64,000 bases of DNA from Paenibacillus sp. DCT19 (GTDB taxonomy: Bacteria > Bacillota > Bacilli > Paenibacillales > Paenibacillaceae): contig NZ_CP029639.1 of NCBI RefSeq assembly GCF_003268635.1, positions 3,359,501 through 3,423,500 of the forward strand. Reading direction: 5' to 3'. Shown here piece after piece: positions 8,201 to 63,908 of this stretch; the stretch's first letter is position 1; each line of letters starts with the position of its first letter. Under the pieces are notes generated by a model. It saw nothing but the letters and a program-made list of their open reading frames with translations, made no database searches and was not told the origin of the DNA. The position numbers and the translations under genes were made by a program.

Positions 8201-8415
8201 TGGCACATCCGGAAATGGACGGAGTGAACTTACGAGTTAATAATCATATTGTTTCGTCAGTAGTAGAGGAAGAACTTGAGCTGCGAGATGGTGAGCAGCA
8301 TTTCAGTAGACCACAGTTCTATATCATCTCAGATCTGATAGCTCCTGAGGAAGCGTATCAGGACTTACGCAATATTCGTTTTGATCCTATGAAAGTAGAA
8401 AGGATAATTCCATGA
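5284..8415 (+). CDS. Giant GNAT acetyltransferase with long beta-sandwich extension
   Basis: 1043 residues. Residues about 8-150 form a GNAT domain: VEYEPRYARSIADMWN at the start, VVGYCSF, and LNVRPDYHGYKIGKRL as the acetyl-CoA loop. The rest has no helix-rich catalytic core that I recognise. Two Ig/NEW3-like segments (about 190-430) precede two galactose-mutarotase-like supersandwich regions, starting near residues 447 (NGRYSVQLNKIN) and 782 (SNGVLQFQ). There is no signal peptide, so the protein is probably cytoplasmic. The ATG at 5284 has GGAGGAATTCTG directly upstream; an ATG at 5260 lacks a site. Its TGA overlaps the next start as ATGA, so it is coupled to the downstream metal-dependent hydrolase. 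Substrate unknown; a glycan or glycoconjugate is a guess from the supersandwich folds. Confidence 0.75.
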   Translation: MSKMEELTITIVEYEPRYARSIADMWNASHESWGGDNSLQTEQTILQEHHHSTHLHVFLALVGEEVVGYCSFSHYKEDKGALYIPLLNVRPDYHGYKIGKRLVLRAIEQTLKLGYPRLDLYTWPGNIKAVPTYKKSGFFWEKRDDTTHLMNLIPSVLQTDAAKPYFEQLDWYVDSVREILVEPDGRQERGFDYFTYEWRKADVSLKMEYERTGRGLRLIETNDYLIQATILHEHKLPFGSTYNIRYEAVNKSGKPLTIEVKGVSNTDIQFDLQGARSVERQEHIEGSFLVHPIQREQDVFQTHPVVEAEVRINGQAATFKLGIEPKFPVKVKAYAPGRSLYIGDGFELDFTVENEYDEDTVFAFRLPSDDVLSFSQPDVQIQVPAKSRLTVSLTAQLLSYGIWHHHFDVYHVSGEERSIVLSQETSLVFPGIQSAFGGETEHDWVISNGRYSVQLNKINNNVSIYEGKESTFYLNFPQLGLPYVSEFKKTRATRVTYRQEHGMVLEAEYDLASSTVKLVQIIQLYSNGTISRHHIVENKSKTARNEPIFLKEGFHLGSGISVIPYEDQYVDVRQGPDASNADYWQLDNVTENWIFTDVGDSTRGITWPQDKQLIVDGRSFAIEHELHFPQGGRIETKPIRIALGTWNNWRDFRSFAQSNEAVEELESIPQLQTKVNQGNPFLHGTLEVEISEQKNAFLEGEITLSTEKASTSTQKQHVSIDQALNRIVTPMTWQYGQEADLMSLQMSMETYEITRARLVFPGSNQPINHQLDQTEYGDVLTVSNGVLQFQASNTFAPALFSLKHHGVEWLESSYPKPGPKSWWNPWLGGISSEIHGLSTTSVLGEEREANFIALEDNLGNAWSGIRMSVRIQKNAKLRGLVLHHYYLTLPGVPVLATTTRIEQNMGVPLKPFSYANQSFYRASNELTDTRIDVKNDAGEPITYKAGRVQYGIDVSSGMIQYGSQERKERLTFVAHPEMDGVNLRVNNHIVSSVVEEELELRDGEQHFSRPQFYIISDLIAPEEAYQDLRNIRFDPMKVERIIP

Positions 8416-9271
8416 AGATTATAGATGCACATGTTCATTATTCTAATATTGCAGCTTTCAAAGAGACTGCGGAAACTTTAGCATCAATTGATTATAGTGA
8501 AAAAGGTTTGCTTGAAGAATTCAGTAAAGCTGGTGTTATTGCTGGGGTTGGGATGGGCGTTACTGAGACTGTCCCAGACGCGTTTCCTGATCCCAATGCG
8601 CTTAATCCAATGCTGCTTGACCTGAGTGAAGGGCTTCCTAATCATCTCTATACCTGTATTGGTATTAATCCATTAACCTTACATTTGGAGGGGCAGCTTG
8701 ATGCAATAGAACAATCGCTGCGCTCAGAGTATGTGGTGGGTATCAAGTTATATGCAGGCTATTATCACTTTAATGTTGGCGACGAAATATATGATCCTAT
8801 ATACAAGCTGGCTTCAACGTACCAGATGCCCATTGTCATTCACGGGGACTGACGTATTCAGATCGTGGACTCTTGAAGTATTCACACCCGCTCTCGATGG
8901 AAGAGACGTTTCTGAAGCACCGTGATCTGACTTTTATGTTGTGTCATTTGGGTGATCCTTGGGTGATGGACACAGCTGCATTGCTGGAGAAAAACCCTAA
9001 TCTCTACACTGATCTATCCGGATGGATCGTCGGAGATGCGGCGAAGGTTGAGCGGCTGTTGCAGGAGCAGACCTATACAGATCATTTCCGCCGTGCCATT
9101 GTATTTGCTGAGAAATATGATCGGCTGGTGTTTGGAACCGATTGGCCGCTGGTTCAATTGGAGCCGTATATACAATTTGTAAAGCATCTGATTCCTGAGG
9201 CTCATTGGGAGGATGTATTTTATAACAATGCACTGCGTGTGTTTCCAAAGCTAGCGCAGATGATGGAATAA
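8412..9271 (+). pseudogene. Amidohydrolase (TIM-barrel) family protein, frame-interrupted
   Basis: The first frame (8412-8852) begins MKIIDAHVHYS, the metal-binding HxH of amidohydrolase-2 enzymes, and runs to MPIVIHGD. The second (to 9271) continues LKYSHPLSMEETF, CHLGDPW, FGTDWPL, the expected next motifs. The two are joined at GGGG 8844-8847: adding one G gives an uninterrupted ~286-residue protein. The break therefore looks like a one-base loss, either a sequencing error or a recent mutation. It starts in the ATGA overlap with the giant GNAT gene and is followed by a terminator, so the two form one operon. The substrate is unknown. Confidence 0.8.
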
Positions 9272-9350
9272 CTGCAGCAATTAGGATATTCGAGGTAAAG
9301 GGATCCAAAATGACTAAGAACAAGAAGAAGGAATACGAAGTAGAGAGTGA

Positions 9351-9371
9351 GCCGCCTGAAGGCGGCTTTTT
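9351..9371 (+). terminator. Terminator after the GNAT-amidohydrolase operon
   Basis: GCCGCC-TGAA-GGCGGC is a perfect 6-bp GC stem with a tetraloop, followed by TTTTT. It is 80 bases past the hydrolase stop. Confidence 0.85.
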
Positions 9372-9426
9372 ACTATACATATGTGCATGTGAACTGGAAA
9401 GAGGTGATGTGCGGTGATGTCGAGGT

Positions 9427-9455
9427 TTGTCGAGGATAACAATGTTAGGTATAGT
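9427..9455 (+). promoter_or_regulatory. Possible SigA promoter of the HssRS-like operon
   Basis: TTGTCG and TATAGT are 17 bases apart, about 50 bases before the response-regulator start. The match is moderate and the position fits. Confidence 0.4.
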
Positions 9456-9506
9456 ATAATGATATTTAATTGAATTATAAGATGCTACATAAGGAGATAG
9501 AGAACT

Positions 9507-10181
9507 ATGCCTACAATATTGGTTGCGGACGATGATCCGAATATCCGCGAACTTGTCTGTTTATTTTTACGGAATGATGGATTTACGACACTTGAAGCAG
9601 AAGATGGTCAACAAGCCCTCACGGTGTACGGCTCAGCTCAAGTGGATCTTGTCGTGCTTGATATTATGATGCCGATCATGGATGGCTGGACATTGTGCAA
9701 GGAGCTTCGAAGAGCCAATCCGGATCTTCCCTTATTAATGCTCACCGCAAGAGGAGAGACATGGGAGAAGGTGAAGGGGTTCGAACTTGGGACAGATGAT
9801 TACCTGACCAAACCATTTGATCCATTGGAGCTTACTGTACGTGTGAGAGCATTGCTGAAACGTTATAAGATTGGTTCAACACAGATGATTCAGTTTGGCA
9901 ATGTTATATTAGACCGGCAGACATATAAAGTCACTAGAGGTACAGAGTCACTAACCTTGCCGCTGAAGGAATTCGAATTGTTATATAAGCTCGCGGGAAC
10001 ACCTGGACAAGTCTATACACGAGAGCAGTTAATTGATCAGATCTGGGGCATTGATTATGTCGGAGATGATCGGACGATAGATGTACATATTAAACGTTTG
10101 CGTGAACGATTCGCAACGACATCTGATTTTCGTATTGAAACGGTACGTGGGCTAGGATATCGACTTGAGGTCAACGAATGA
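9507..10181 (+). CDS. OmpR/PhoB-family response regulator, HssR-like
   Basis: 224 residues. The receiver domain has the acidic pocket VADDDP, phosphoacceptor Asp52 in VVLDIMMP, Thr80 and Lys102 in TKPFDP. The C-terminal winged helix (about 130-222) ends ETVRGLGYRLE. Segments such as LPLKEFELLY, REQLIDQIWG and DDRTIDVHIKRLRERF closely resemble remembered HssR sequences (heme-sensing regulator of Gram-positives), but the target is not proven and no hrtAB heme exporter lies within the window. AAGGAG precedes the ATG. Its stop overlaps the kinase start (ATGA). Confidence 0.85.
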   Translation: MPTILVADDDPNIRELVCLFLRNDGFTTLEAEDGQQALTVYGSAQVDLVVLDIMMPIMDGWTLCKELRRANPDLPLLMLTARGETWEKVKGFELGTDDYLTKPFDPLELTVRVRALLKRYKIGSTQMIQFGNVILDRQTYKVTRGTESLTLPLKEFELLYKLAGTPGQVYTREQLIDQIWGIDYVGDDRTIDVHIKRLRERFATTSDFRIETVRGLGYRLEVNE

Positions 10182-11548
10182 TTCGATCCTTATACATTCG
10201 TGTTGTGCTTACCTTCCTCATATCTGTCATTGCGGGTACAGTCATCTCGTTTTTTGTATCGATATGGATCTTTCAAGAGCAACTTAATGAGAATGCAAAT
10301 ATTAATTTGCGAAACTTTGGTCAAGATGTTGTGCAGATCTATGAGGGGCTTCCGTCATCAGAAGCTGAATTGTTTATCAGTCATATGAAGCAGCTTGAAT
10401 CCTATTACATTCGGATTTATGAAGCCACAGGTGAGTTTACATCATATGGACAGTCTGACAATCATAAATCGGCTAAGATTACGCCTGAGCAACTACAGAC
10501 CGTGTTAAATGGAGGCGCTGTGCAAGATACACGAAATGGAATTGGTACGGCTCTCATAGGTTTGCCAGTCAGAACAGACATGGGAACCAAGGCGTTGTTC
10601 TTTGAAACACTTGCACCGCCTTCGGCTTCTTTTGTCATTTCGTGGGGATTAATCTTTGCGACCACTTCCTTAATAACGGGCAGCTTGTTGATCCTGATTG
10701 CTTCAGTATTTCTAGTTAGACCGATTAAAAAACTGACAATAGCAACAAAACGAATTGCCGCAGGAGATTTCAATCTCAAGCTGAATATCAAACAAAGTGG
10801 TGAACTCGGTACATTGGCACGTAGTTTTGAAGAAATGACGCATGACCTCCAGCAGCTGGAACAGATGCGTAGGGATTTTGTAGCCAACGTTTCACATGAG
10901 GTTCAATCCCCGCTCACTTCGATTTCTGGCTACGCGCAAGCACTTAAAAACGTAAGCCTCGCAGAGCAGGAACGTACGCGGTACCTGGATATTATTATTT
11001 CGGAAGCGAAGCGGATGTCGAAAATGAGCGATAGCTTGCTTAAGCTGAGTATGCTTGAATCACAGTCACAGCAACTGAAACTTACTACGCTAGGTCTTGA
11101 TGAACAAATCCGCAGAGTAATCGTGGCGCTTCAGCCTCAGTGGTCAGCTCGTAATGTTCATTTTGAACTGGATCTTGAGCCTGTCAAAGTCACGGCTGAT
11201 CATGATCAATTAGATCAAGTATGGACTAATATCATTGGTAATGGCATCAAATTCTCTAGAGATGGCGGCGTAATTCATGTTCATATGCAACAAGATAGCG
11301 ATAAAGTGACTGTACGGATAACCGATGCGGGAATTGGCATTTCCCTTGAAGACCAAAAGCGTGTATTTGAACGGTTCTTCAAAGCAGATCGCTCCCATAG
11401 TCGCAAATATGAAGGTAGTGGTATGGGACTCGCTATTACCAAACAGATTGTAACACTTCATCAAGGTGATGTTCGAGTTGAAAGTGTACCTGATCAAGGA
11501 ACGACTTTCATTGTTACACTGCCTGTGGCAACCACTAGGGATCATTAG
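10178..11548 (+). CDS. Membrane sensor histidine kinase, HssS-like
   Basis: 456 residues. TM1 (about 8-32), an extracytoplasmic sensor of about 120 residues and TM2 (about 154-180) are followed by a HAMP linker starting RPIKKLT. HisKA has the phosphoacceptor His240 in NVSHEVQSP. The ATPase domain shows the N box (NIIGNGIKFS), G1 (DAGIGIS) and G2 (GSGMGLAI). The total length and architecture equal HssS of Staphylococcus. The sensed signal cannot be read from the sequence. It is co-transcribed with the regulator and followed by a strong terminator. Confidence 0.87.
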   Translation: MIRSLYIRVVLTFLISVIAGTVISFFVSIWIFQEQLNENANINLRNFGQDVVQIYEGLPSSEAELFISHMKQLESYYIRIYEATGEFTSYGQSDNHKSAKITPEQLQTVLNGGAVQDTRNGIGTALIGLPVRTDMGTKALFFETLAPPSASFVISWGLIFATTSLITGSLLILIASVFLVRPIKKLTIATKRIAAGDFNLKLNIKQSGELGTLARSFEEMTHDLQQLEQMRRDFVANVSHEVQSPLTSISGYAQALKNVSLAEQERTRYLDIIISEAKRMSKMSDSLLKLSMLESQSQQLKLTTLGLDEQIRRVIVALQPQWSARNVHFELDLEPVKVTADHDQLDQVWTNIIGNGIKFSRDGGVIHVHMQQDSDKVTVRITDAGIGISLEDQKRVFERFFKADRSHSRKYEGSGMGLAITKQIVTLHQGDVRVESVPDQGTTFIVTLPVATTRDH

Positions 11549-11610
11549 ATTCATTTTCATATACAAGTGAATTGCACATCGTTTAGCCAATAGATGTTAG
11601 ATCTGTACAT

Positions 11611-11661
11611 GTTATGGCTCCTATACAAGCTTGCTTGTGTGGGAGTCATAACATTTTTTTT
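11611..11661 (+). terminator. Terminator of the two-component operon
   Basis: GTTATGGCTCC pairs with GGGAGTCATAAC, with an inner ACAAGC/GCTTGT stem, then ATTTTTTTT. It lies 60 bases after the kinase stop. A 61-codon open frame across it is judged spurious. Confidence 0.8.
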
Positions 11662-11775
11662 GCTTGTAGGTAAAGAACAGCTTGGAATGAACTGTTATAT
11701 ATATCTGGAATCGTATGATCCGTATAATCCAATACATAAATCAAATTATCTAATCTATTGGGTGGGGGGAATAGA

Positions 11776-12810: not shown

Positions 12811-12840
12811 TTGCATGTCTATAGTAGGTTGTGTAAGAAG

Positions 12841-12869
12841 AAAAAAATCGCCGCATGGGCGATTTTTCT
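12841..12869 (+). terminator. Terminator, probably bidirectional
   Basis: AAAATCGCC-GCAT-GGGCGATTTTT; A-rich on the left and T-rich on the right, so it can serve both the APH gene and the convergent minus-strand gene at 12943. Confidence 0.8.
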
Positions 12870-12942
12870 CTTATTCGCTATGAATCAGCTGCTAGCATTT
12901 TAGCTATTATGGTTTCTGTAGTCTAATTGAGGTTCGTCTAAT

Positions 12943-13134
12943 CTAGAGATTTCTTCTACGATCTATTAGATCTAATATACTCATTACTGCGAAGACAGCC
13001 ACTATGATCAAAATATAAACTAAAAATTCAATCCAGTTTACATTTTCAAGTGTACCTCGGAACAAGTGATACAACACTTTGGTTGTAGTAACCGCAATAA
13101 TGCAAAGGATAAGATTAGTTAATTTTTTCTTCAT
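12943..13134 (-). CDS. Small two-helix membrane protein, function unknown
   Basis: 63 residues from the ATG at 13134 (a TTG one codon upstream is possible). Two hydrophobic segments, about residues 5-25 and 34-55, end in basic DRRR. The binding site is a weak TTAGGT. No family recognised. The convergent neighbour terminator and coding-like composition favour a real gene, but it could be spurious. Confidence 0.45.
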   Translation of the reverse strand: MKKKLTNLILCIIAVTTTKVLYHLFRGTLENVNWIEFLVYILIIVAVFAVMSILDLIDRRRNL

Positions 13135-13137
13135 CAA

Positions 13138-13972: not shown

Positions 13973-14056
13973 CGTATACATCTCCTTATTTCCGTATAAT
14001 CAGGTAGATATCGATCTTATCAATTTGAAATATCTCCTTGAACTCATTATGCTAGT

Positions 14057-14083
14057 TAAAGGTGTCAAAACATGAAACCTTTA
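14057..14083. promoter_or_regulatory. Inverted repeat, candidate operator between VOC and YafY genes
   Basis: TAAAGGT and ACCTTTA form a perfect 7-bp inverted repeat separated by 13 bases, centred in the divergent intergenic region just ahead of the regulator start. No T tract follows, so an operator is likelier than a terminator. Confidence 0.4.
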
Positions 14084-14096
14084 TAGGGAGATAGCG

Positions 14097-15038: not shown

Positions 15039-15132
15039 GTAAGCGGATAGATGACATGTTTCTAGATAACATTTTTCTCATTTCTTGTAACTTTGGCAAT
15101 GGAACCTCCGTCATATAGATTGAGGTGAGAGA

Positions 15133-15902
15133 ATGAGGTCGTATAAATATGGGGCGAAATTAGTTTTTGTATTTCTTATATCCATAATGTTAACAAGCTG
15201 TAGCATTGAGAATGATGGGAAAATGTCGTCATCAGGCGCTTCAGACAGTTCGAGCACTTCATCGCCTTGTGTAACAGGAAACATTAATTTGGCAGATTTC
15301 CTAATGATTAATGATGTTATGTACTCGCTGAATGATAGTAGGTCCGATGCAACTCCAATTGAGCCTGAGCTCATGGGGACAAGGTTGGTGAAGTTAAATT
15401 TACAATGAGTGAACAAGCTTGTTCAGATCATGTTGTGCAAAATGGAGACGCTGCATTCCTTCCAGTCGGCACATCTGTATATGAATTAAAGGGTTATCGG
15501 GCAGAATTTCGTGTAGTAGCTAAGGGTAGAATGTACCAGGTTAATGACAATCCTAAGGCTGGGACGATGGGCGATCTGATGGACATCGCTTCAAAGGTAG
15601 AGAAGATCAGCTTGGAAAGTGGAAATGACGGTAGTATAATCGGTGATTTTACCGAAGAAGCAACATCAGAATTTGTAAACGAGTTATTACCTTTATCATA
15701 TGTAGGCTTTGATGAAGTATATAAAAAAGCAAAACATGACTATGGTATCTTCCTGCGTGTGTATCTTCAAGATGGTACATCTATGCGTATGGTGTATTAT
15801 CCAAAAGCGAATGCATTCTCGGCAGGAGCCTTTGGAACAGAGCGGTTAAATGAACTAATTGTTACGCAAAGACAACGGATCAAATCCGCGGCAGGCATGT
15901 AA
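15133..15902 (+). pseudogene. Lipoprotein of unknown function, frame-interrupted
   Basis: The first frame (15133-15408) gives a signal peptide with lipobox LTSC (Cys23) and a Ser-rich linker. The second runs to 15902 and continues GEVKFTMSEQACSD and TSVYELKGY. They join at GGGG 15375-15378: one extra G yields a continuous ~256-residue lipoprotein reading ELMG-DKVGEVKF. The GTG or ATG inside the second frame has no ribosome binding site, so two separate genes are unlikely. No family is recognised. The start has GAGGTGAG upstream. Confidence 0.75.
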
Positions 15903-21768: not shown

Positions 21769-21874
21769 AGTGTTTTATTTGTTAATTACAAAATTTGCAA
21801 CTTTATCACTGATCATCGCGTTATGTTTATGTGGTCATATATGGAAGTATTCAGACTAGGAGGTTATCTCTATC

Positions 21875-23278
21875 ATGTCCAATAAACAGACTCAGCACAT
21901 GAATTCAACTCGGCAAATGCGAGTAATTAAGCCAGTAATTGCTGGTGTAACGGCTGCTATGTTTGCTGCTTATGGTGTACTGGGCATCCTACCAACTCAA
22001 GCCCATGCAGAAGCTTCTGATATTTCGGTGCGCAACTGGCATTCTTATAATAGCTACTCCGTACCTGAGGTTAAAGCATCATGGAGTGCCAATGTAGATA
22101 ATTACCTTAAGATGAACGAAGCTTATTTAGAAGGCAGTGCTATTGCCGAAGAAGGTAAGGTATTTACATTTGTGGGATCGAAGTTGGTTGCACTCGATGC
22201 CAAAACGGGAAAACAGATATGGACGTATGGCAAAAAGCTAACACCATTCATCACTTATAAGGATGGGACTCTCTATGGATTAAGTGCTAATCATAAGCCT
22301 TATGCACTGACTGCAAAGACAGGTAAGGTGAAATGGCAGTCTGGTACATCCACGAGTATAGATGCAATGCTGCGTACCGAAGCTTTAATTCCTAAGACAG
22401 ATACATTCTATGTGATTAATGGAAGTACAACTTTTGCATTTGATATGAAGTCAGGCAAGCTGCGCTGGAAGGCGAATGAACCGTTGGGTGAAGGGAACGG
22501 CACTGCGTATCTAGAGGAGTCTGATGGGGTTGTACTGCGAACTTTCAATGTACAAGGTGCACTTTCATCCATTCAGCTCAATGCGTATGACAAGAAAACA
22601 GGCAAGAAGCTATGGAGTGAATTCGGTCAGGGAGAAGCTCTCCAAGTTAAAGGTGGCCTTGTATATTCAATCGACTATTACTCGCCAATGCTGGAAGAAT
22701 ACGATTCAATCCCTGATCGAACCTGGAAGGTGAATGTGTACAATTTAAAGACGGGTGTGTTGAAAGGCAGTCAGGAGTATTCGTGGAAAATGGCTGGAGA
22801 ACCACCGTATGCAAATGGTCGGGGCAGTATATTAGCGAACCAAGATAAACTGTACATTGAACAAGGGGATAAAATAGCAGAGTATTCGCTAAACGCCTAC
22901 AAAAAAGGAAGTGCTCCCCTGCGAACACTACAGCGACCTCATGGGGAGAACCTAGAATTGATTGGCATCGTTCAAGAACGGCTGATCTATAAGAACTATA
23001 CGACAGGAGAACTGACCGGAATTAAGCTGGCTAATGGTCAGGAGATCAAATGGTTAGGAGATGCACCTATTTCCCAGATTGATGTCTATGGTAAAGGTAT
23101 GTATCGGTCACAGCGCAACGGTACATTGCTAGGCATCGATATGCTGTCAGCGAAGCCTCTTTTCCGGGTAGCGACTGGGGGAGATCTGCATCATACAACG
23201 TTAAAAACGGATGGGATGCTCATCGTTCAGACGGAAGGCAAGATTCTCGGCGTGAAATTACCGGCAGCTCTGAAATAA
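21875..23278 (+). CDS. Secreted PQQ-type beta-propeller protein
   Basis: 467 residues. The N-terminus is basic, followed by a membrane-spanning signal (about 20-46) ending AHA-EAS. The body contains recurring propeller blades: LVALDAKTGKQIW, YALTAKTGKVKW, FAFDMKSGKLRW, NAYDKKTGKKLW. That pattern matches PQQ-binding-like/BamB-like repeats, but nothing indicates bound PQQ or an enzyme. Probably a surface or wall-associated scaffold. AGGAGG is upstream. A small membrane protein gene follows 33 bases after the stop and may be cotranscribed. Confidence 0.75.
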   Translation: MSNKQTQHMNSTRQMRVIKPVIAGVTAAMFAAYGVLGILPTQAHAEASDISVRNWHSYNSYSVPEVKASWSANVDNYLKMNEAYLEGSAIAEEGKVFTFVGSKLVALDAKTGKQIWTYGKKLTPFITYKDGTLYGLSANHKPYALTAKTGKVKWQSGTSTSIDAMLRTEALIPKTDTFYVINGSTTFAFDMKSGKLRWKANEPLGEGNGTAYLEESDGVVLRTFNVQGALSSIQLNAYDKKTGKKLWSEFGQGEALQVKGGLVYSIDYYSPMLEEYDSIPDRTWKVNVYNLKTGVLKGSQEYSWKMAGEPPYANGRGSILANQDKLYIEQGDKIAEYSLNAYKKGSAPLRTLQRPHGENLELIGIVQERLIYKNYTTGELTGIKLANGQEIKWLGDAPISQIDVYGKGMYRSQRNGTLLGIDMLSAKPLFRVATGGDLHHTTLKTDGMLIVQTEGKILGVKLPAALK

Positions 23279-40006: not shown

Positions 40007-40026
40007 TCTGAAGTGAGGTGAAATTC

Positions 40027-41258
40027 ATGGTTGTAGTTAATATTACTGGAGCACTAGCAGGGAATCAATTTGAACCTTCGATTGCTGTTAACACGCTTAA
40101 TCCTAATATTCTGTGTGTTGTGGCCGTGGATACCAGTACGGGTCCGACATTGACAGGATTTTATCGTTCTATTGATGGTGGAACGACTTGGTCAACCTCG
40201 ATTCTGCCCAATCCTCCCGGGTATGCTGGCGCAGAGGCACCTACCATTGACTATACGTTTCCAAGTACATTTATTGTAACCGTGCACGTGTTTAACGGAT
40301 TCAATGACGGGACAATCGTGAGTTATACCTCTTTCGATGATGGACTAACCTGGCAACCACCCGTTATTGTTCAGGCAGGCTATGGTACGGTGATTCATAA
40401 TGATGAGCCATTAATTGCGGTTGATCGCTCTCCTGGTAGTCCTTACAGGGGAATGCTTACGTGGGCTATACACCATTAGCCACGACTTTTTCTGCCATCT
40501 TTTCTCAGAGATCTCTTACACAAGGGTTGAATTGGGAAGCACCTGATCGTCAGTCCAGCCCAAGAGGTATACATGACCGTGCAGCATTGGCAGTTGGGTT
40601 CAATGGAGAGGTCTATGCAGGGTATATCATTACTGGACCGGCTAGTCCTTCAGCGCTTCTGCGAATCTCGTACGACGGAGGGATCAACTACCAGCCCTCT
40701 ATTGAAAGACAATCTACTTTTATCGCCTCCGTAGTTCCTTCACCTTCTCCACTGCCTGTTCCTAATTATCAATTTCGAGTACAGACCAATTTGAATCTCG
40801 CTGCAGATATTTCTAATGGGCCGTTTAGCGGAACGGTCTATGCTGTATGGAATGATGCACGTAACGGATATACTGATGTTTTTCTCTCCGAGTCTCCCGA
40901 TGGCTTACTTTGGTCAGATCCAGTAAGTATTACAAGTGCACCCGTCGGTACACAGAACTTTTTCCCTTCCATCGCAGTTTCACCATACACGGGTACGATA
41001 AGAGTTATTTATTATTCCAACCAGATTGATGGATTCCTGCTCGATGTTTATGTCGCAGAGTCGTTTAATGGAGGAGCTACCTTTACCAATCGCCGACTGA
41101 CCACCACTTCCTTCAATCCAAACGGAATCTCGCCGGTACCGACAGTTCTGATCGGAGATTATATCACGGCGCAAACGACTGCTCCCGACAATCTTGCTGC
41201 GGTATGGATGGCAACAACTCTTCCTACAGGTAAATTAGATGTCTATTTTGGAACGTAA
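40027..41258 (+). pseudogene. BNR/Asp-box (sialidase-like) beta-propeller, frame-interrupted
   Basis: Two frames join at GGGG 40448-40451: one more G restores SPYRGNAYVGYTPLA and gives about 410 residues. Asp-box repeats are clear: SIDGGTTWS, SFDDGLTWQ, SYDGGINYQ, SPDGLLWSD, SFNGGATFT. There is no signal peptide. The ATG at 40027 has GAGGTG six bases upstream. Sialidase activity is not implied, as the catalytic Arg triad is not evident. The break is probably a sequencing error. Confidence 0.72.
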
Positions 41259-47519: not shown

Positions 47520-48152
47520 ATGAACAAAGCAATGATTAAAAGGTATTGGGTGTTTGTCGCCATACTAATAGTAGTGTTCTTTTATTACGAGCATCGATTA
47601 AACGTAGCCCAAAAAAACGAAGATGTCCTACTGGAGTTATACCAATCCAAGAATAATAGTGGTTACATCACTTTTCTCAAAGAAGGCCATTCTTTCAAGC
47701 CACTGGCACATACACTTGAAGAACTTAGTCAGGTGACGAATGAGGTGCAGCCAGCCAAAGTTCAGAAGTTGCTTGATCAAGCGAAGGTACAGGGGAAAGA
47801 TGCGACCCAGTATCTAACGACTCTTATTGAGTTCAGTGATGATTACATATCTACATCTAAACCTCGGTATATGTACGAGTACGATTACTCTGTCATGACA
47901 TCAGCGAAACAGAAGGAGGTGTATCAGCTCGCCTACCGTAGTGATCTATATGGACTAATGTATGGAATCAGTTATCACTATTGGAAGGACAAACCGAAAT
48001 TAATCCCTCAGGAAACCCAAACGGTACTTGCGTCGATTGCTAAAGAACTGCATGCATTGGATGAAACACTCTCATTTTACAAGACAAGTGCAGATCGTCA
48101 GTTACAATGGGGGATGAGAGAAGTATGGAGCAGCTTAAATCCATCATTCTAA
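47520..48152 (+). CDS. Membrane-anchored protein of unknown function
   Basis: 210 residues. A membrane helix (about 8-24) is followed by a helical extracellular region rich in charged residues (EELSQVTNEVQPAKVQKLLDQAKVQ, QTVLASIAKELHALDETLSF). The ribosome binding site is weak (GATGAAG). No family recognised. The gene stands alone between the nos-like operon and a 500-base gap. Confidence 0.6.
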   Translation: MNKAMIKRYWVFVAILIVVFFYYEHRLNVAQKNEDVLLELYQSKNNSGYITFLKEGHSFKPLAHTLEELSQVTNEVQPAKVQKLLDQAKVQGKDATQYLTTLIEFSDDYISTSKPRYMYEYDYSVMTSAKQKEVYQLAYRSDLYGLMYGISYHYWKDKPKLIPQETQTVLASIAKELHALDETLSFYKTSADRQLQWGMREVWSSLNPSF

Positions 48153-48207
48153 ATGAAGTGAAGCTTCATTTCAATAAAATTGTGGAGATCAAAAGCGAAA
48201 TGAATCT

Positions 48208-48342
48208 TTAACCTACGCTGAACCATTCCAATCGTACGCATGTTACGATAAACAAAATAATCCATCCCCAGAGTACTAATAAACGAATTGCTCGTGGAAT
48301 GACTAAATACTCCGAATACAATTTTGTGAAAAATTTTCGCAT
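48208..48342 (-). CDS. 44-residue single-helix membrane protein
   Basis: A small frame with AAAGGGG seven bases before the ATG. The protein has a basic N-terminus with aromatic residues, one clear hydrophobic segment (about 20-36: LLVLWGWIILFIV) and a short tail. It occupies an otherwise empty 500-base gap, which supports it. No family recognised. Confidence 0.45.
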   Translation of the reverse strand: MRKFFTKLYSEYLVIPRAIRLLVLWGWIILFIVTCVRLEWFSVG

Positions 48343-48685
48343 GGTTAAGCCCCTTTATAGGATCAAATTTAACAAAATTTTACCACGCGAGGGAATAATG
48401 TAAAAGGTTAACTTAACTGACTTCATAATGTATTTTGTTGCCCGTATACGAACCCTTCATATAGGTCAGATTAACTTTACTTGAACCATTTGTTCAGCGA
48501 AGGTGTAGGAGTGTAGTTGTTAACATACGACAAGCTTTTGAAAACAATAAATACTTAAAATTTTATTTTCTCAATATAAAATAATATGTATAATGGGCAA
48601 TACGTCTGACAAAAAAGTGTAACACTGACACCAACTCCAAAGAATAATCATGATGATTCGGAGGAGACCGAGAAGAGGAGGACAT
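48343..48685. other. AT-rich gap with promoter of the glutamine-type transporter
   Basis: A TATAAT at 48589-48594 is the only good promoter element; the -35 is weak (TTTTCT). The region is AT-rich. I see no further gene, hairpin or riboswitch. The upstream part must hold the promoter of the minus-strand small gene. Confidence 0.4.
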
Positions 48686-50136
48686 ATGAAAACAACGAAG
48701 GTCTCATTTTTTGTACTTACCCTGGTTTTGCTCCTGGTGACGGGGTTATCTGGATGGGCAGGGGAGCATCTGCAACAGAAGCGAATTCAGGCAAAACGTA
48801 TGTCATCGGTACGGACATTACATTTGCTCCATTTGAGTTTGAGGATGCGAATGGTAATTTTGTAGGTATTGACATGGATCTAATGGACGCCATTGCCAAA
48901 GATCAGAATTTCAAGTATGAAATTAAAGCCCTCGGTTTCAACGCTGCCGTTCAAGCGCTTGAGGCGAATCAAGTCGATGGCGTAATTGCAGGGATGAGCA
49001 TCACGGATGAGAGAAAGAAGGTATTCGATTTCTCGGAAGCTTATTATCCATCCGGTGTTGTTATGGGGATTAGTGCCAACAACGATACAGTGAAGAGCTA
49101 TGAAGATCTCCGAGGACAAAAGGTTGCTGTCAAAACAGGAACGGCTGGGTACACATTTGCTGAATCCATTGCCTCCGAGTATGGCTTTACCATTGTGCCT
49201 TTTGAAGATTCCGCACAAATGTATCTTGACGTTATAACAGGCAATTCTATTGCGTGTTTTGAAGATCAACCCGTTCTAGCTTATGGCGTCAAACAAAACA
49301 ATGGTTTGAAAATTGTAACTGAGAAAGAAGACGGAGACTCTTACGGATTTGCGGTAAGTAAGGGGAAGAATCAAGAGTTGCTTCAGAAGTTTGATGCAGG
49401 ACTCGTAAACATTAAGGCAAGTGGTGAGTATGATCGAATTTTGGAAAAATATGTTGGGGAAAATGCCCCAACTGCTGCACAAAGTAGTCGGTGGGAGAAC
49501 ATTCAGAATTCACTTCCAGCTCTGTTTAAAGGGTTAGGAAATACATTATTGTACACGGTAGTATCGTTGTTCTTTGCCTTTATTATTGGTCTGATCTTTG
49601 GATTTATGAAGGTAGGACAGAATAAGATCCTTCGTGGAATTGCAACAGTTTTTGTTGATGTGTTCCGTGGTATTCCATTGATTGTACTTGCGTTCTTTAT
49701 TTATTTCGGTATTCCACAAGCAATGGGCTTCACCATGCCACTGTTCTTGGCAGCGATTTTAACACTAAGTTTGAATGCCGGAGCTTACGTAACCGAAATT
49801 ATTCGGGGCGGGATTCAATCCATTGATCCAGGACAGCTGGAAGCAGCTCGTTCATTAGGCTTACCTTATCGTAAGGCTATGATGAAGATTGTTATTCCAC
49901 AAGCGATTCGAGTGATGATTCCTTCATTTATCAATCAGATGGTAATCACATTGAAAGATACGTCGATCTTGTCTGTTATCGGTCTTGTAGAGCTGACTCA
50001 ATCAGGTAAGATTGTAATCGCCAGAACGTTTACCTCTTTCGACATTTGGTTAACGGTTGCGGTTATGTATCTGATTGTTATTATCACATTGACCAAAGTT
50101 GCTGACTATCTGGAGGTGAGGGTTCGCCGTGGGTAA
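48686..50136 (+). pseudogene. Amino-acid ABC substrate-binding protein/permease fusion, frame-interrupted
   Basis: The ATG at 48686 follows AGAGGAGGACAT and opens a signal peptide. The reading frame breaks at GGGG 48761-48764: adding one G gives WAG-GASATEANSGKT and a ~483-residue chain. Residues about 30-250 are a glutamine-type binding protein (YVIGTDITFAPFEFED, GVIAGMSITDERKKVFDFS), followed by a fused GlnP-like permease (NTLLYTVVSLFFAFIIGLIFGF, EIIRGGIQSIDPGQLEAARSLG, the EAA loop). Read as is, an ATG at 48754 would give the protein without its signal. It overlaps glnQ by eight bases. Confidence 0.83.
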
Positions 50137-50857
50137 AATTAAAGTTGAAGGATTGAAGAAAAGCTTCGGAACGAATCATGTTCTGAAAGGAATTGATATG
50201 TCCGTCAATGAGGGTGAAGTTGTCTGCGTCATTGGACCCTCTGGATCAGGCAAAAGTACGTTTTTGCGTTGCATTAACCAACTTGAAGAAATAACTGAGG
50301 GTCGAGTGATTGTGGATGATCAGGATCTGAATGATTCCAAAACAAACATTAATAAAGCGCGTGAAAATATCGGCATGGTGTTTCAGCACTTTAACTTGTT
50401 CCCTCACTTTAATGTACTGAAAAATATTACGTTTGCACCAAGAGAACTTGGTTTGTTAAATGAAGCGCAGGCACGCGAGACTGCTCTGAAGTTATTAGAC
50501 CGTGTAGGGTTATCGGATAAAGCAAACAGCTTTCCAAGCCAGCTCTCAGGAGGTCAGAAGCAACGGGTGGCCATCGCTCGTGCACTTGCGATGACGCCAG
50601 ACGTGATGTTGTTCGATGAACCAACCTCTGCGCTTGACCCTGAGATGGTTGGTGAGGTGCTTGGTGTAATGAAGGATCTCGCTCGTGAAGGTATGACGAT
50701 GATGATTGTCACACATGAGATGGGATTCGCACGTGAGGTGGCCGATCGGGTGATCTTCATGGATGGTGGATACATCGTAGAAGAAGGAAGCCCTGAAGAA
50801 GTATTTGGGAATCCTAAGAATGAACGTACCATCAGCTTCTTGGAAAAAGTACTCTAA
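50129..50857 (+). CDS. glnQ: Amino-acid ABC transporter ATPase (GlnQ-like)
   Basis: 242 residues from a GTG within the upstream stop. Walker [10 protein letters not shown] (36-44), signature [15 protein letters not shown], Walker [13 protein letters not shown] and [15 protein letters not shown] identify a polar amino-acid importer ATPase. Partner of the fused binding-protein/permease gene. It completes the transporter. Confidence 0.9.
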
Positions 50858-50865
50858 TAGAGGTT

Positions 50866-50920
50866 GTTCAAAAAGTCTGCTTTTGATTACGAAAGATGCT
50901 CAAGCGGCATCTTTTTGAAC
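50866..50920. repeat. Long imperfect hairpin, possible dispersed repeat
   Basis: GTTCAAAAAG at one end pairs with CTTTTTGAAC at the other, with TCTGC/GCGGC-like inner pairing. It sits nine bases after glnQ and before a stronger terminator. Inverted GTTCAAAAAG ends are common in small dispersed Paenibacillus elements, so this may be a MITE-like unit rather than a terminator. Family assignment is from memory only. Confidence 0.45.
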
Positions 50921-50941
50921 AGGACTAATATGATAATGCTA

Positions 50942-55824: not shown

Positions 55825-57593
55825 ATGAAAATGACGAAATTCATACATAGATCCACGCAATTCAGTTTACAAACCAAGGTTTTTTTGACCTTTTTGGCAT
55901 TACTTTTGTTTGTTTTATGTTGTTTTCTCGTGTACGTCAATGTCGTCGTTATTCGTCCGCTCAAACAAAAAACAGTGCAGGATACACTAGTGACTACAAC
56001 AAAAGTGAGAGAACAAGTAGATCTATACTTGGATCAACAGAACCAGCTCTCCCAGCGGCTTTTGTCGAGCAAAGACATCTTTACCACGATGGACAAGAGT
56101 TCTTCTGCACATAGTGATTACGAGCGGCTAAAACAAATTCGCAAGCTGAAGGACATTATTTTCCAAGCGATTGGACCAAGCATGAATATTAAGGATATGT
56201 CCATTTATGACAAGCAAGGTATACTTCTTACTTCGTATTTAGGAGCAGGTCAACCACCCGTTTCTATTCACACATTGTTAGGAGATAGTAAGGTTGGGCG
56301 AGAATGGGCAGGGAACGGTTTTATTCTACTGAGGCAGGGAGATATCATATCTTTTGTACGAACGGTGAATGATCAGAATGGTAAAGTGTACGGTTATCTA
56401 TCCATCCAGATGGATCAAATGGTAATTCAGAACCTGACCGAAGGAATTACAGCCGGCGAAGTTTATATTTTGAACCAACAGGGAGAGCAGATGACAGGTA
56501 CTGATCTTGGCATAAAAGCGAAGCAATGGACGATACCTCCATTGGAGGAAGGTCTGGAAGTCGATGAACATAACAATTACGTTACCTACTCCACATCTTC
56601 TAGTACCGGATGGGTTACGTATATCGTTACGCCTAGCAAGTCGGTGTTAGGCTCGATCCAGAAGGTTCAGACGATTTCCATTTTGCTGATTACAGCACTC
56701 ATGCTCATTTCTTTCGTCTATATTTACTTATCTACTCGTAATCTGTTGCTTCCAATTCGTAAACTTCGCAGTCAAATTTGGCGCATCAACTACAGTAATC
56801 TCAACCTGAAGGTCGATGATCGGCCGAAAAACAATGATCTCTTATTGCTGAACGAAGCATTCCAGGATCTAATGGAACGACTGCAACAATCTATCGATCG
56901 GGAGAAAACGGCGCTACATGAAGAGGTAAAAGCAAGAAATTCAGCACTGCAGGCTCAGATAGCGCCTCACTTTATCCATAATGTTCTTTATTTGATCAGC
57001 ATTGCTGCTCAAGAGGGTAAAACCAAAGTGGTGTCGGATATGTGCAAGCATCTCTCGGAGAGCCTACGTTATATCGTTTCTTCTCCTTACGCGCATGTGA
57101 CTTTATCTGAAGAGCTTGAGCATACGAGACATTATCTATCACTTGTGCAGCAAAATATGAAGACGATCTGGAATGGGATATCCATGCAGATCCATTAGCG
57201 AAGGAAGTTCGTTTACCACGCCTGGTGATTCAGCCTTTTGTAGAGAATTGCATTGAACATGCATTTTGCAATACATCTCCGCCGTGGCATATCCAGATTA
57301 CCGTGAAGCAATATAACGGATTATGGGCGCTTGAGATTAGAGACAATGGAGAGGGCTTTTCTGCTGAGAAGATTCAAGAGATTCTAGCGAATATTCAGCA
57401 TTCCCGCTCAGGGGCAAACATGATGAACAATCAAGAGACGGCACTGGGCAATATGGGGATTGTCAACAGCGTTAATCGGCTCAAACTGATGTATAGCAAC
57501 CGGCTATTTTTTAATATATTCAATAATCAAGGCCATGGAGCAAAAGGAGCAACGATTCAAATCATCGGCTCGTTAACCGAGGATTTTTATTAA
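55825..57593 (+). pseudogene. YesM-family sensor histidine kinase, frame-interrupted
   Basis: The first frame (55825-57198) has TM1 (about 17-38), an extracellular Cache-type domain, TM2 (about 283-303), HAMP and the phosphoacceptor His382 in IAPHFIHNVLYL. The second (to 57593) supplies RLPRLVIQPFVENCIEHAF and DNGEGF of the ATPase domain. They join at AAAA 57152-57155; one more A restores QQKYEDDLEWDIHADPLAKE and gives about 589 residues. It is the normal length for YesM. Partner of the downstream YesN-like regulator. Confidence 0.87.
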
Positions 57594-57612
57594 ATGGGGA
57601 GGGCAGATAACC

Positions 57613-59133: not shown

Positions 59134-59274
59134 CTATAGGTTAATGAATAAACAGGAGTATTTCGTGAGCAAATGCCTTGAAATCTGGATAGAATACCTT
59201 AATATTAAATAAGGTGTGGTCATGAATATAGTTTGATAACAAATAAAGCAACCTGGTTAAGGGAGACTGGAATT

Positions 59275-61332
59275 ATGCGAAATGCATTAGATCTAAAACG
59301 TTTTTATATGGGAGCTTGTTACTATCCTGAGCATTGGGACGAGTCGTTATGGGCAGATGATTTAAAAAGAATGAAGGAAATGGGCTTTGATCTGATCCGC
59401 ATCGGAGAGTTTGCATGGTCCATTTTTGAACCACAGGAAGGGCAATTCAATTTCGAATTCTTCGACCGCTTCCTTGAGCAAGCGATTACATGGGACATGA
59501 AGGTGATTATGGGAACACCAACAGCCACGCCACCAGCATGGCTTACACATAAGTATCCTGAAGTGTTGAACGTCTCAATGGAAGGCATTACATACCATCA
59601 CGGCCAGCGTAGACACTATAATTATAGTAGTCCAATATATCTGGAGCTCTGCGCGCGCATTACAAGAGAGATGGCTCAACATTACAAGGATCATCCTGCG
59701 ATTATCGGATGGCAGATCGATAATGAACTGAATTGTGAGACAAACGTATTTTATGCCGAAGCGGATCACCTTGCATTTCGGCGCTGGTTGCAACAAAAAT
59801 ATGGTGCGTTGGATAGCCTGAATCAAGCGTGGGGCACTGTCTTTTGGAATCAGACGTATGATCAATGGGAGCAAGTGCACCTCACTCGTCCAACGGTATC
59901 CGATTCACCTAATCCACATCAGGCATTGGACGAGAAACGCTTTATTTCGGATAACACGATTTCATTCGCGAAGCTCCAAGGTGACATTCTAAGAGCAGAA
60001 GCACCTAATCAATGGGTTACTACTAATGGCATATTCGGACATCTAGATAACCACAGCATGTCAGATGAGATTCTGGACTTCATGTCTTATGATTCCTATC
60101 CGCAATTTAGCACCATCTATCCAGATCCTGGAGAACAGCCGTTGCTTGATCGGAAATGGAGCTTGTCCTTGAGCAATGTCAGAGATATATCGCCGAATTT
60201 TGCTGTGTTAGAGCAGCAGTCGGGACCTGGCGGTTGGGTGAATCGAATGCAGATGCCATCCCCACATCCGGGGCAAATGCGTTTGTGGACGTATCAGAGC
60301 ATTGCTCATGGTGCTGATATGATACTGTACTTCCGCTGGAGAACAGCTACCATCGGTACCGAAATCTATTGGCATGGAATTAATGACTATCATAATCAGC
60401 CGAATCGTCGGGTTGCAGAAGCGGCGACTGTGGGTAAGGAATTGCAGAAGGTGGGAGAACGTATTGTTGGCAAACGTTATGTTGCGCAAGTAGCCATGCT
60501 GCGTGATTACGATAACGAATGGGATGGCGAGCTGGATCAATGGCACGGCTCACTAAACAGACCAAGTGAGCTAAGCTGGTTTAAAGCGCTTCAATATGCA
60601 CATATCCCAACAGACGTAGTGACCATTCGTCCTGGGGGTGAAACGGAACAACTGCAGGATCTTGCGAAATACCAAGTGTTAATCTATCCTCATCCTGCCA
60701 TTTTACGAGAAGATACAGCTGAGATGCTTCAGAAATATGTAGAAAATGGTGGGTCAGTTGTATTCGGCTGCCGGACAGGGTACAAAAATGAGTCTGGTCA
60801 TTGTCGTATGCAGCCGCTGCCAGGTCCAGTTGCAGAACTCAGTGGCATTCAAGTTGAGGATTTTACAATGGTTAATGGTACAGCTAGTCCAGTAAGCGTA
60901 CAACTGAGCCAACATACGAACCTGTTTAATGCTCCAAGCTTCAATGATATTCTGCGGGTACATGCAGATACGGTTGAAGTGCTCGGCACATATGCATCCA
61001 GTTATTATAAAGGTAAACCGGCATTAACGGTTAATCGTGTTGGTAAAGGCAAGGTATATTATTGGGGAGCAGCCTTTGATCTGTCCGTAGCAGCTGAGCT
61101 GTTAAGTCAGCTTCAGATTACATCTCCACTTAAGGACTGGTGCGAGGTGCCTGAAACGGTTGAGGTCGCTATTCGTGCTGATGATCATGATGAACTCGTA
61201 TTCTTACTGAACTACAGTAGTGAAGCAGCCGAGATTAAGCTTCATGTACCTACAGAAGAGTTGCTCCAGGGCAGCCAGCTTCAAGGGACGGTTACGCTGG
61301 AACCTTATGGGGTATGGGTCCTGAAGAGATAG
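59275..61332 (+). CDS. Family 42 beta-galactosidase
   Basis: 685 residues, normal for GH42. The catalytic residues are Glu151 in GWQIDNELN and Glu313 in AVLEQQSGPGGW. The N-terminal barrel opens FYMGACYYPEHW, and a trimerisation domain (NGGSVVFGCRTGYKNESG) and a small beta domain follow. The ATG at 59275 is chosen because AAGGGAG lies upstream; the frame extends to 59233 without one. No signal peptide, so it cleaves imported galactosides in the cytoplasm, consistent with the adjacent importer. Confidence 0.92.
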   Translation: MRNALDLKRFYMGACYYPEHWDESLWADDLKRMKEMGFDLIRIGEFAWSIFEPQEGQFNFEFFDRFLEQAITWDMKVIMGTPTATPPAWLTHKYPEVLNVSMEGITYHHGQRRHYNYSSPIYLELCARITREMAQHYKDHPAIIGWQIDNELNCETNVFYAEADHLAFRRWLQQKYGALDSLNQAWGTVFWNQTYDQWEQVHLTRPTVSDSPNPHQALDEKRFISDNTISFAKLQGDILRAEAPNQWVTTNGIFGHLDNHSMSDEILDFMSYDSYPQFSTIYPDPGEQPLLDRKWSLSLSNVRDISPNFAVLEQQSGPGGWVNRMQMPSPHPGQMRLWTYQSIAHGADMILYFRWRTATIGTEIYWHGINDYHNQPNRRVAEAATVGKELQKVGERIVGKRYVAQVAMLRDYDNEWDGELDQWHGSLNRPSELSWFKALQYAHIPTDVVTIRPGGETEQLQDLAKYQVLIYPHPAILREDTAEMLQKYVENGGSVVFGCRTGYKNESGHCRMQPLPGPVAELSGIQVEDFTMVNGTASPVSVQLSQHTNLFNAPSFNDILRVHADTVEVLGTYASSYYKGKPALTVNRVGKGKVYYWGAAFDLSVAAELLSQLQITSPLKDWCEVPETVEVAIRADDHDELVFLLNYSSEAAEIKLHVPTEELLQGSQLQGTVTLEPYGVWVLKR

Positions 61333-61347
61333 AGCGCGAGCAGACAG

Positions 61348-61393
61348 AAGATAGTACGATGAGCATTAGTTGTTCATTGTACTATCTTTTTTT
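61348..61393 (+). terminator. Terminator of the beta-galactosidase gene
   Basis: AAGATAGTAC pairs with GTACTATCTT around a large loop; T tract follows. It is 16 bases past the stop. Confidence 0.85.
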
Positions 61394-61557
61394 GTTTTCA
61401 CACGTTGGCTTATAGGTAGGAAAATTGTTCATCAAGTCAAGCGGGCTAACGGGTTTAGATAAAATGATTTCACTTAGATTACATATAATGGAGTGACGCG
61501 TGTCGTTTTATCCTCTATAGTAGTATATAGTACAGACAAGCGTTAAGGAGTCCTTAT

Positions 61558-62952
61558 ATGAGCAAACAAGCCATTCCTTTGAATTCGTTGACTGAGGTCA
61601 CGAACGGAGGACATATTATTTATTTTTTCGAGGATTTCAATAGTTATGTTGATAATGCTGTATCTTATATCGTAACGGGGATCGATCAAGGTCATCATAT
61701 ATTACTTATTGAGGAAGCTGTCACATACGATAAGATTTTGCAAAAGCTTAAAGACAGTATATCTCATGATCAGCTTCAATATCTTCATTATGCTAACAAT
61801 ACAGAATACTATGGAGAACATGGTAACTTTGAGTTCCAACATATTCTTGCACATTTTGAAGATATCATGGGCTTCATTCAGGAACAAAACAAGCCTATAC
61901 GCACTTGGGCGAATGTGATGACATGGGGAGATCACCCGGAAAAGCAGATTCTAGAAAATCTAGTCACTTATGAACGGCAAACCACCTGTGTTGTTCGGGA
62001 TAATGGAATGTTGTCGGTTTGCGCCTATAATACGGAGATGATCTCTTCCTCATTACAGCTTAAATTAATGAGAGAGCATGAATACATGATGACAGATATG
62101 GAGTTTGTAAAATCCCCTCTGTATCACTATCGTGCTTCGGACGACGTGATTTTCCCGTCGTTATCGGTTCAAAGTCAATTGTTGTATGAACAAAAGCATC
62201 TAAAGATCGAAAAAGAAGCGGTGGAAATGGCTAGCCAAGTTAAAAGTGATTTCATAACAACGATGAATCATGAGATTAGAACACCGATGAATGGTTTGCT
62301 GGGCATCTCTGAGTTATTAGCAGCTACTGAACTGAATGCTGAACAGAGAGAGTATGTCACCACAATACAAAGTAGCGGAAAGTCTCTGCTTCGTATTGTT
62401 AATGATATCTTAGATTTTAATAAGCTGGAATCAAGCTACGATCAATTGTTAAGTGAGCCTTTCAATCCTCGTGAATCCGTCAAGGAAATGTTGGATATCC
62501 TTCATACCGCAATCTCGGAAAAAAATCTTCAAGTGAATATATCCATAGATTCTCGTATTCCACAGATTGTTGTTGGAGATGATGGTCGATTCAGACAGGT
62601 ATTGCTGAATTTATTAGGAAATGCCGTGAAATTCACTCCTGTAGGAAGCATCGGCATTAATGTTGTACTTCTAAATGCCGATGGCAGCAAGCTTAAAATG
62701 CAAGTCAGCATACAGGATACGGGGACGGGAATACCCCAGGACAAGCGAAGCCAGCTGTTTCTACCATTTTACCGAGTGGATAACAGCATTACCCGACAAA
62801 CAGAAGGAACAGGTCTTGGGTTAGCAATCTGTAAACGGATCATAGAGCTGATGAATGGGGACATACGCCTTGAAGACGAGCATAATGATACCCCAGGCAC
62901 TACGATCACGTTCACTGCGGAGTTTAATAAATATCTAGAGGTTGATCTTTGA
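61558..62952 (+). CDS. MEDS-domain histidine kinase
   Basis: 464 residues. The N-terminal 165 residues form a MEDS (DcmR-type sensory) domain: GGHIIYFFEDFNSYVDNAVSYIVTGIDQGHHILLIEEA and GNFEFQHILAHFEDI. After a linker, HisKA has phosphoacceptor His238 in TTMNHEIRTPMNG and HATPase has GNAVKFTP, DTGTGIP and EGTGLGLAI. Soluble (no helices). MEDS sensors respond to small organic compounds in methanogens and methylotrophs; its ligand here is unknown. AAGGAG precedes the ATG. No response regulator adjoins it. Confidence 0.83.
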   Translation: MSKQAIPLNSLTEVTNGGHIIYFFEDFNSYVDNAVSYIVTGIDQGHHILLIEEAVTYDKILQKLKDSISHDQLQYLHYANNTEYYGEHGNFEFQHILAHFEDIMGFIQEQNKPIRTWANVMTWGDHPEKQILENLVTYERQTTCVVRDNGMLSVCAYNTEMISSSLQLKLMREHEYMMTDMEFVKSPLYHYRASDDVIFPSLSVQSQLLYEQKHLKIEKEAVEMASQVKSDFITTMNHEIRTPMNGLLGISELLAATELNAEQREYVTTIQSSGKSLLRIVNDILDFNKLESSYDQLLSEPFNPRESVKEMLDILHTAISEKNLQVNISIDSRIPQIVVGDDGRFRQVLLNLLGNAVKFTPVGSIGINVVLLNADGSKLKMQVSIQDTGTGIPQDKRSQLFLPFYRVDNSITRQTEGTGLGLAICKRIIELMNGDIRLEDEHNDTPGTTITFTAEFNKYLEVDL

Positions 62953-63006
62953 ACTGGTATCATCGAACTTTGAAATAACTAGTTACTACGGAAAGTAGGA
63001 TGCCAA

Positions 63007-63336
63007 GTGTTAACGTTGAAGAAGGTTGAGCTTCAGGGACATGATGTATTTGAACTCATGCAGGGACATCTTCAAGACTCACACTGGTTAGATAGTTCCA
63101 TTTATTTAACAGAAGAAGTAATTAATAAGACTGAGTTTGTAAAGATATGTAAGCATTGTTTAGTGAATTTTAACTATTACGGTCCGACTGAAGTCAACCA
63201 AGTCGAATGGAAACAGATGAAGCAAATGGCCGATTCATCTGAATCCGAAAGTACTAAACAATTGTTAGCGGAAATTGATTTTTGGGCAATCGAATGCTTC
63301 GAAAATCATTCGTGCTTCACAATCTGTGGTATATAA
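63007..63336 (+). CDS. Hypothetical protein, 109 residues
   Basis: Starts at a GTG with TAGGA eight bases upstream. A compact soluble protein with ELMQGHLQDSHWLDSSIYLTEEVINKTEFVKICKHC. Three Cys and two His in the last half may bind metal, but the pattern is not a known zinc motif. Follows the MEDS kinase by 54 bases and may be cotranscribed. Confidence 0.55.
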   Translation: MLTLKKVELQGHDVFELMQGHLQDSHWLDSSIYLTEEVINKTEFVKICKHCLVNFNYYGPTEVNQVEWKQMKQMADSSESESTKQLLAEIDFWAIECFENHSCFTICGI

Positions 63337-63381
63337 CTTGCGGAAATACATTAAAGCGAAATTTCATACTAGTTTAATAGA

Positions 63382-63419
63382 GAAAAGGCAGTCGTTCTTA
63401 AGGAACGTACTGCCTTTTT
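63382..63419. terminator. Bidirectional terminator
   Basis: AAAAGGCAGT pairs with ACTGCCTTTT, with an inner GTTC/GAAC stem, A tract on the left and T tract on the right; it can serve both the hypothetical gene and the convergent crystallin-like gene. Confidence 0.8.
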
Positions 63420-63531
63420 CGCTTGTTGTGATGTTAATTACGACTAGTTAATCTGCTAGTTCAAGATGAGCGAGTGGATATTTTCGCAATTATAAGCAGA
63501 TTGGATAAATCTATTAGAAAGGGTTCTGATA

Positions 63532-63908
63532 TCAAATCAGACGGTAGCCCGGTGGCAAGTTGCCTGTACGTCTAATTCTACGGATCTGAGCCAGTGTCAG
63601 CCGCTCATTCGATGCGATTAGCGACTCAACATCCCCTCTGCGCAGGAAATCATCCAATTCTCGAATGCTACGGTTACCCCGCAGTACAACGAAATTATCT
63701 CTGAAGCGAGACCGATCGAACAAAACCAGAGTAGCGAACGGGTTGGTAGAGAAGAATCGCAGGCTCTCGATCCCTGTCAGGACTGAGTCAATATCGCTTA
63801 TGCCGAGGTTGCCACGGTAGACTCTTCTTAATCCTCTGAAATTCTCTTCACTATACACGGTTAAGCGGGGTAGATAATTTGGGAGATTGAAGCATTTTTG
63901 TTATCCAT
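63532..63908 (-). pseudogene. Beta/gamma-crystallin-like small protein, frame-interrupted
   Basis: The long frame (63532-63858) starts at a GTG without a binding site. Upstream, TAAGGAGG and an ATG at 63908 open a frame that breaks at CCCC (GGGG 63867-63870 on the plus strand). One extra base fuses YP-RLTVYSEENFRG and gives about 125 residues. The body has YSEENFRGLRRVYRGN, then LVLFDRSRFRDNFVVLRGNRSI, matching paired crystallin-type Greek-key motifs; a C-terminal helical segment (LTLAQIRRIRR) is added. No signal peptide; a coat or stress role would be a guess. Confidence 0.65.

Follow-up and report, generated by a model that had tools for sequence, protein, structure and literature searches.

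Homopolymer errors of long-read sequencing and the indels of mismatch repair mutants are the described systems closest to the observations reported here. As set out in the available parts of the respective publications, nanopore sequencing calls C and G homopolymers worse than A and T homopolymers and underestimates their lengths (PMC8486125). Deletion errors peak behind stretches of four to five identical letters, letters outside of runs also being lost in part, and the same source cites 92% of the read errors of PacBio CCS as lying at homopolymers (PMC12007338). Furthermore, the high-quality tier of genome assemblies can be attained despite many frameshift errors (PMC9262707).

The DNA analyzed here, referred to as the window, is a stretch of 64,000 bases comprising positions 3,359,501-3,423,500 of the single-contig chromosome of a Paenibacillus strain (6,667,063 bp). 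Its one-base losses, and those found elsewhere on the chromosome, resemble what is described of under-polished long-read assemblies in that one-base deletions dominate, increase with run length and break reading frames gene by gene. As in the nanopore profile of PMC8486125, G/C runs fare worse than A/T runs. In the nanopore assembly described in the available part of PMC12007338, in contrast, errors in A/T runs are about twice as frequent as in G/C runs, whereas the present chromosome shows a strong excess in G/C runs. Short indels at homopolymers are likewise shared with PacBio data. With the mismatch repair mutator of B. subtilis, as far as described in the available part of PMC11890065, the chromosome shares an indel rate that grows with homopolymer length, but it differs in showing no transition excess and no gains in G/C runs, and in having broken essential genes.

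We are highly confident that the broken frames are residual consensus errors from miscounted homopolymers and that the genes are intact in the living strain. The one-base losses are almost certainly a property of the assembly and not of the organism.

Interrupted genes in the window and their intact counterparts

The window was compared with Paenibacillus sp. Root52 and P. tundrae DS1314, the nearest named relatives, which were reached via the transporter gene. Each of them aligns collinearly with almost the entire window, at a DNA identity of 84-94% (61,890 and 59,890 of the 64,000 bases aligned, respectively); further relatives with a DNA match of 66-76% were left out of the comparison. The list of indels was confined to lengths not divisible by three, and a script-based comparison of gene models (see below) gave seven gene-breaking one-base losses (Table 1). 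All seven genes are open in Root52 and in P. tundrae, and at each of the seven sites the relatives read one base more. A sequence-only reading of the window had counted seven interrupted genes and located the break in six of them; the present comparison gives these six and one more, at 48109. The window also has a one-base gain at 21864, but this precedes an intact ORF of 467 aa (21875-23278) and breaks nothing.

Table 1. One-base losses in the window relative to Root52 and P. tundrae (window coordinates)
Feature	Position	Strand	Break	Observation
Amidohydrolase gene	8412..9271	+	8844, beside GGGG	Root52 286 aa, open; Pfam Amidohydro_2 (Root52 protein)
Lipoprotein-like gene	15130..15902 (start approximate)	+	15374, just before GGGG	relatives TT, window T
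BNR/sialidase-like propeller gene	40018..41258	+	40452, beside GGGG	
Seventh broken gene	47520..48211	+	48109	Root52 228 aa; G-run of 5 in the window, 6 in both relatives
Amino-acid ABC transporter substrate-binding/permease gene	48686..50136	+	48761, in GGGG	
YesM-type sensor histidine kinase gene	55825..57593	+	57152, in AAAA	
Small protein gene	63532..63962 (start approximate)	-	63871, beside plus-strand GGGG	Root52 143 aa
Intergenic one-base loss	2035..2036	.		G-run of 4 in the window, 5 in both relatives
Intergenic one-base loss	48616..48617	.		A-run of 6 in the window, 7 in both relatives

The sequence-only reading had proposed that adding one base to a four-base run repairs each of its six genes. 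The six runs are present, and one base is missing at or beside each of them as compared to the relatives; however, the letter beside the run in the relatives is T at 15374, T at 40452 and A at 63871. The check suggested with that reading, namely whether relatives carry five-base runs, gave a plainly longer run in both relatives at 48761 and 57152, and at 8844 in Root52, which has five G where P. tundrae reads GGAGG. A longer run is equally plain in both relatives at 48109. At 15374 the lost T abuts the G-run. Because of the other letter, the comparison alone is silent on the loss of a run letter at 15374, 40452 and 63871; a substitution may have lengthened the run in this genome, the length of which was then miscounted.

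Counted by hand, six of the seven losses lie in or beside a plus-strand G-run of at least four, the exception being the A-run at 57152. Positions in or adjoining such G-runs make up 0.95% of the window. The gene interrupted at 63871 is encoded on the minus strand, so that its coding strand carries a C-run at this site. Its earlier designation as crystallin-like is unsupported, as its Root52 relative matched no Pfam family at E values up to 0.01. No Pfam family was found for the lipoprotein-like gene at the same threshold.

Copies of three window genes (YesM, transporter and BNR) were searched for in a protein database, and near-identical intact ones were found for two. The pieces of the BNR gene matched P0241, a protein of 410 aa from a 2.41-Mb contig, in 142 of 142 and 263 of 265 residues; one of the two mismatches is the start codon read as M. 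The transporter piece matched P0121 (483 aa; longest contig 104 kb) in 451 of 457 residues, and this protein also carries the N-terminal part that lies in another frame in the window. For YesM, a near-identical intact copy was not seen in the protein database, the nearest full-length protein being P0002 of P. tundrae (589 aa, 93%). According to the sequence-only reading, a homologue with the same break would have spoken against sequencing error. None was found: the seven genes are open in both relatives, and the transporter frame runs uninterrupted past the position corresponding to 48761 in 80 of 80 loci, the best 80 of the 124 found.

One-base losses along the chromosome

Whenever two of the three genomes had an open and concordant gene model, a script tested it against the third genome. 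Eight regions were sampled along the 6.67-Mb chromosome, with 449 gene models (55 of them in the window) and 434,864 bases, both totals including an indel-rich patch described below. The fetched stretches 0-0.04, 0.70-0.72, 3.352-3.360 and 4.00-4.06 Mb were left out of the comparison with the relatives, and comparable gene models numbered only 40 at 0.1-0.2 Mb and 30 at 1.5-1.6 Mb. The models include short conserved ORFs, which possibly are not genes. Counts of losses and gains exclude the 46 events of the patch, and the run tables exclude its genes. The region at 2.88-2.92 Mb (region M) is absent from the conserved-run tables, which cover the other seven regions.

Outside the patch, 64 one-base losses were detected in the eight regions, as compared to five one-base gains and five longer events. 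Of the 415 gene models that seven of the regions hold beyond the patch, 61 have a broken frame. A loss at 5.765 Mb is counted twice, once in rplB and once in an ORF on the opposite strand; the 60 losses in gene models of the seven regions therefore represent 59 places, which become 64 with region M. As a control, the relatives were examined in the same manner. The first version of this control was biased, since its models were open in both relatives by construction and losses were hardly detectable. It was replaced by a control covering all eight regions, in which the genome being tested had no part in the choice of the models, and the outcome was much the same. Root52 showed four events, three of them one-base, in 389 gene models (362,801 bases), and P. 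tundrae ten events, two of them one-base, in 388 gene models (360,262 bases).

The 60 losses were then assigned to the adjoining run of at least three equal letters, which is a G-run in 33 cases, a C-run in eight, a T-run in six and an A-run in four. Nine losses, including the one at 15374, touch no such run as the gap was placed by the script. For the run tables of the seven regions, runs of equal length in both relatives that are shortened by one here were counted. Shortening affected 6/348, 8/53 and 3/6 of the G-runs and 3/122, 1/10 and 1/2 of the C-runs of four, five and six letters, respectively, or 9/470, 9/63 and 4/8 of the G and C runs taken together. The corresponding number for A and T runs of four to six is 2/2,268 (odds ratio 48, p = 2e-14). 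Long T-runs were shortened too (T7 1/14, T8 2/3), and among the thousands of short runs of each kind a few cases were seen (G2 1, G3 2, A3 1, T2 3, T3 1). In the relatives, none of the G/C runs of four to six was shortened (0/456 in Root52, 0/460 in P. tundrae), and one A/T run of these lengths in each (1/2,084 and 1/2,087).

G and C runs of four to six did not differ from each other (17/407 versus 5/134, Fisher p = 1.0), so that a convergent loss from G-runs, which the sequence-only reading had considered should the breaks be real, is unsupported. A strand-bound loss had been suggested by region A, i.e. the window and 100 kb beyond, where, the patch aside, plus-strand G-runs of at least three adjoin 17 of the 19 losses (counted by eye). 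This possibility was rejected, as minus-strand genes account for 11 of the 13 losses in the region at 5.0-5.1 Mb, the GC skew of which is opposite, and as G and C have equal per-run rates. The bias towards G among the losses in the window thus results from the higher frequency of G-runs on the plus strand of that part of the chromosome, and not from a G-specific process.

Essential genes and alternative explanations

Two of the broken genes are essential. The gene rplB, which encodes the essential ribosomal protein L2 and was identified by the NCBIfam L2 equivalog, is split near residue 35 into parts that are 98.4% and 100% identical to Root52. The gene polC, encoding the principal polymerase of replication, is one frame of 1,446 aa in both relatives and reads as 918 + 566 aa here, with 97.5% and 98.7% identity of the two halves to Root52, whose protein matches the NCBIfam PolC equivalogs. 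PolC is described as essential in low-GC Gram-positive bacteria, and no mutant lacking its final five residues was recovered, according to the available part of PMC12309361. Both polC and rplB are needed for life, yet they are broken in the same way as the other genes, arguing that the losses are reading mistakes and not gene loss. In contrast, rpoB and dnaE both have an unbroken reading frame, as expected for chance hits. In gene models of at least 120 aa, the share of genome-specific substitutions that fall on codon position 3 is 81.4% after the break, 80.4% before it and 79.4% in unbroken genes. Selection thus continues past the breaks, and the codon pattern is not relaxed.

Taken together, these results show what is expected of consensus errors: losses exceed gains and increase with run length, a run behaves like its complement, and the importance of a gene is ignored. 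The homopolymer base-calling error put forward from the sequence alone is thereby supported, given losses from G/C runs that are chromosome-wide, one-directional and steeply dependent on length, essential genes among those hit, and relatives that are nearly free of such events. In this explanation, sequencing under-counted G and C runs of at least four letters and, less often, long runs of A or T, so that one base was dropped per roughly 7 kb of sampled coding sequence. We infer that the assembly was built on long reads, either nanopore or PacBio, and that short-read polishing was inadequate. Counterpoints to this explanation are the completeness score of the genome (99.98%), the few one-base events in the relatives (three and two), the other letter that the relatives carry at 15374, 40452 and 63871, the nine of 60 losses that touch no run, the opposite A/T preference in the nanopore assembly of PMC12007338, and the detection of near-identical intact copies for only two of the seven window genes, three of which were searched for.

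A true mismatch repair mutator, in which mutL would really be broken and slippage would have shortened runs chromosome-wide, fares best among the alternatives but is nevertheless very unlikely. Indels that depend on run length are expected of such strains (PMC11890065), and mutL indeed reads as 423 + 366 aa here as compared to 738 and 746 aa in the relatives. However, the mutL break (2,891,261; L210:11261) is itself a loss beside GGGG and should not be read as evidence for a mutator, and mutS is one open frame of 940 aa versus 958. In a real mutator, slippage should add letters to runs as well as remove them, but none of the five one-base gains created or extended a run of at least two G or C, versus 22 losses in conserved G/C runs of four to six. 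In addition, a mutator could not survive the broken polC and rplB. The transition:transversion ratio is not raised either (2.19 here versus 2.45 and 2.37 in the relatives), although this measure is insensitive to a very young mutator. In mismatch repair-deficient B. subtilis, transversions make up about 1% of the substitutions, as stated in the available part of PMC11890065. What speaks against a very young mutator is therefore not the substitution ratio, but solely the breakage of essential genes and the fact that the events go in one direction. We consider it extremely unlikely that such a young mutL mutator exists with G/C runs that only shrink, some of the breaks in non-essential genes being real and those in polC and rplB being sequencing errors.

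Real and recent gene decay in the lineage has an equally minute probability. Viewed singly, every broken gene resembles a young pseudogene; the hits in polC and rplB, the breakage of 61 of 415 gene models with an unrelaxed codon pattern, and the intact near-identical copies of two of the genes all argue against decay. Programmed frameshifting or transcriptional slippage would find its usual slippery sites in G or A runs, but it is next to impossible here, as the break is not conserved in the 80 transporter loci (the best 80 of 124) or, for all seven window genes, in the two relatives. Least probable of all are phase-variable tracts in a mixture of on and off cells, for which G and C tracts serve in some bacteria, since the G/C runs concerned are only four to six letters long and are scattered over unrelated genes, rplB and polC among them, with changes in one direction.

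An indel-rich patch and the use of the genome

Consensus error probably also underlies a patch of 4.4 kb at 3,503,835-3,508,211 (L116:335-4711), in which the frames of four gene models are changed by 46 indels, both losses (26 of one base, nine of two bases) and gains (11). Gap openings amount to about 13.5 per kb in the patch versus 1.7-5.5 in its flanks, with a similar density of mismatches. The patch is probably little-corrected long-read sequence, presumably with low coverage.

Two further observations were made during the comparison. A MutS-family gene at 5,029,877-5,030,834 (L138; 702 aa in Root52), which we take to be mutS2, reads broken by a one-base loss together with a gap of 65 bases; the gap may be a real length difference. 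Moreover, a dispersed repeat of about 228 bp (L127:18709-18936) was noted, whose copies in the sampled regions of the genome are 72-91% identical. Full or partial copies occur in L141, L137, L144, L136, L115, L132, L151 and others, side by side in L136 and L151, and dozens of matches are present in both Root52 and P. tundrae. The repeat gave no Rfam match at E values up to 0.1. Its end (46 bp) is found at 50854-50899 of the window, overlapped by an insertion of 41 bases relative to Root52 at 50888-50928.

Overall, if the rate in the sampled regions (64 losses in 435 kb) holds elsewhere, the 6.67-Mb genome would contain on the order of 1,000 frame breaks. The affected genome, with its completeness of 99.98%, is the sole one of its species in the collection searched. 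The relevance of the losses is that of a warning only: until this genome has been checked with accurate reads, it would mislead anyone who counts its pseudogenes, takes genes such as mutL, polC or YesM to be missing, or calls new ORFs from it.
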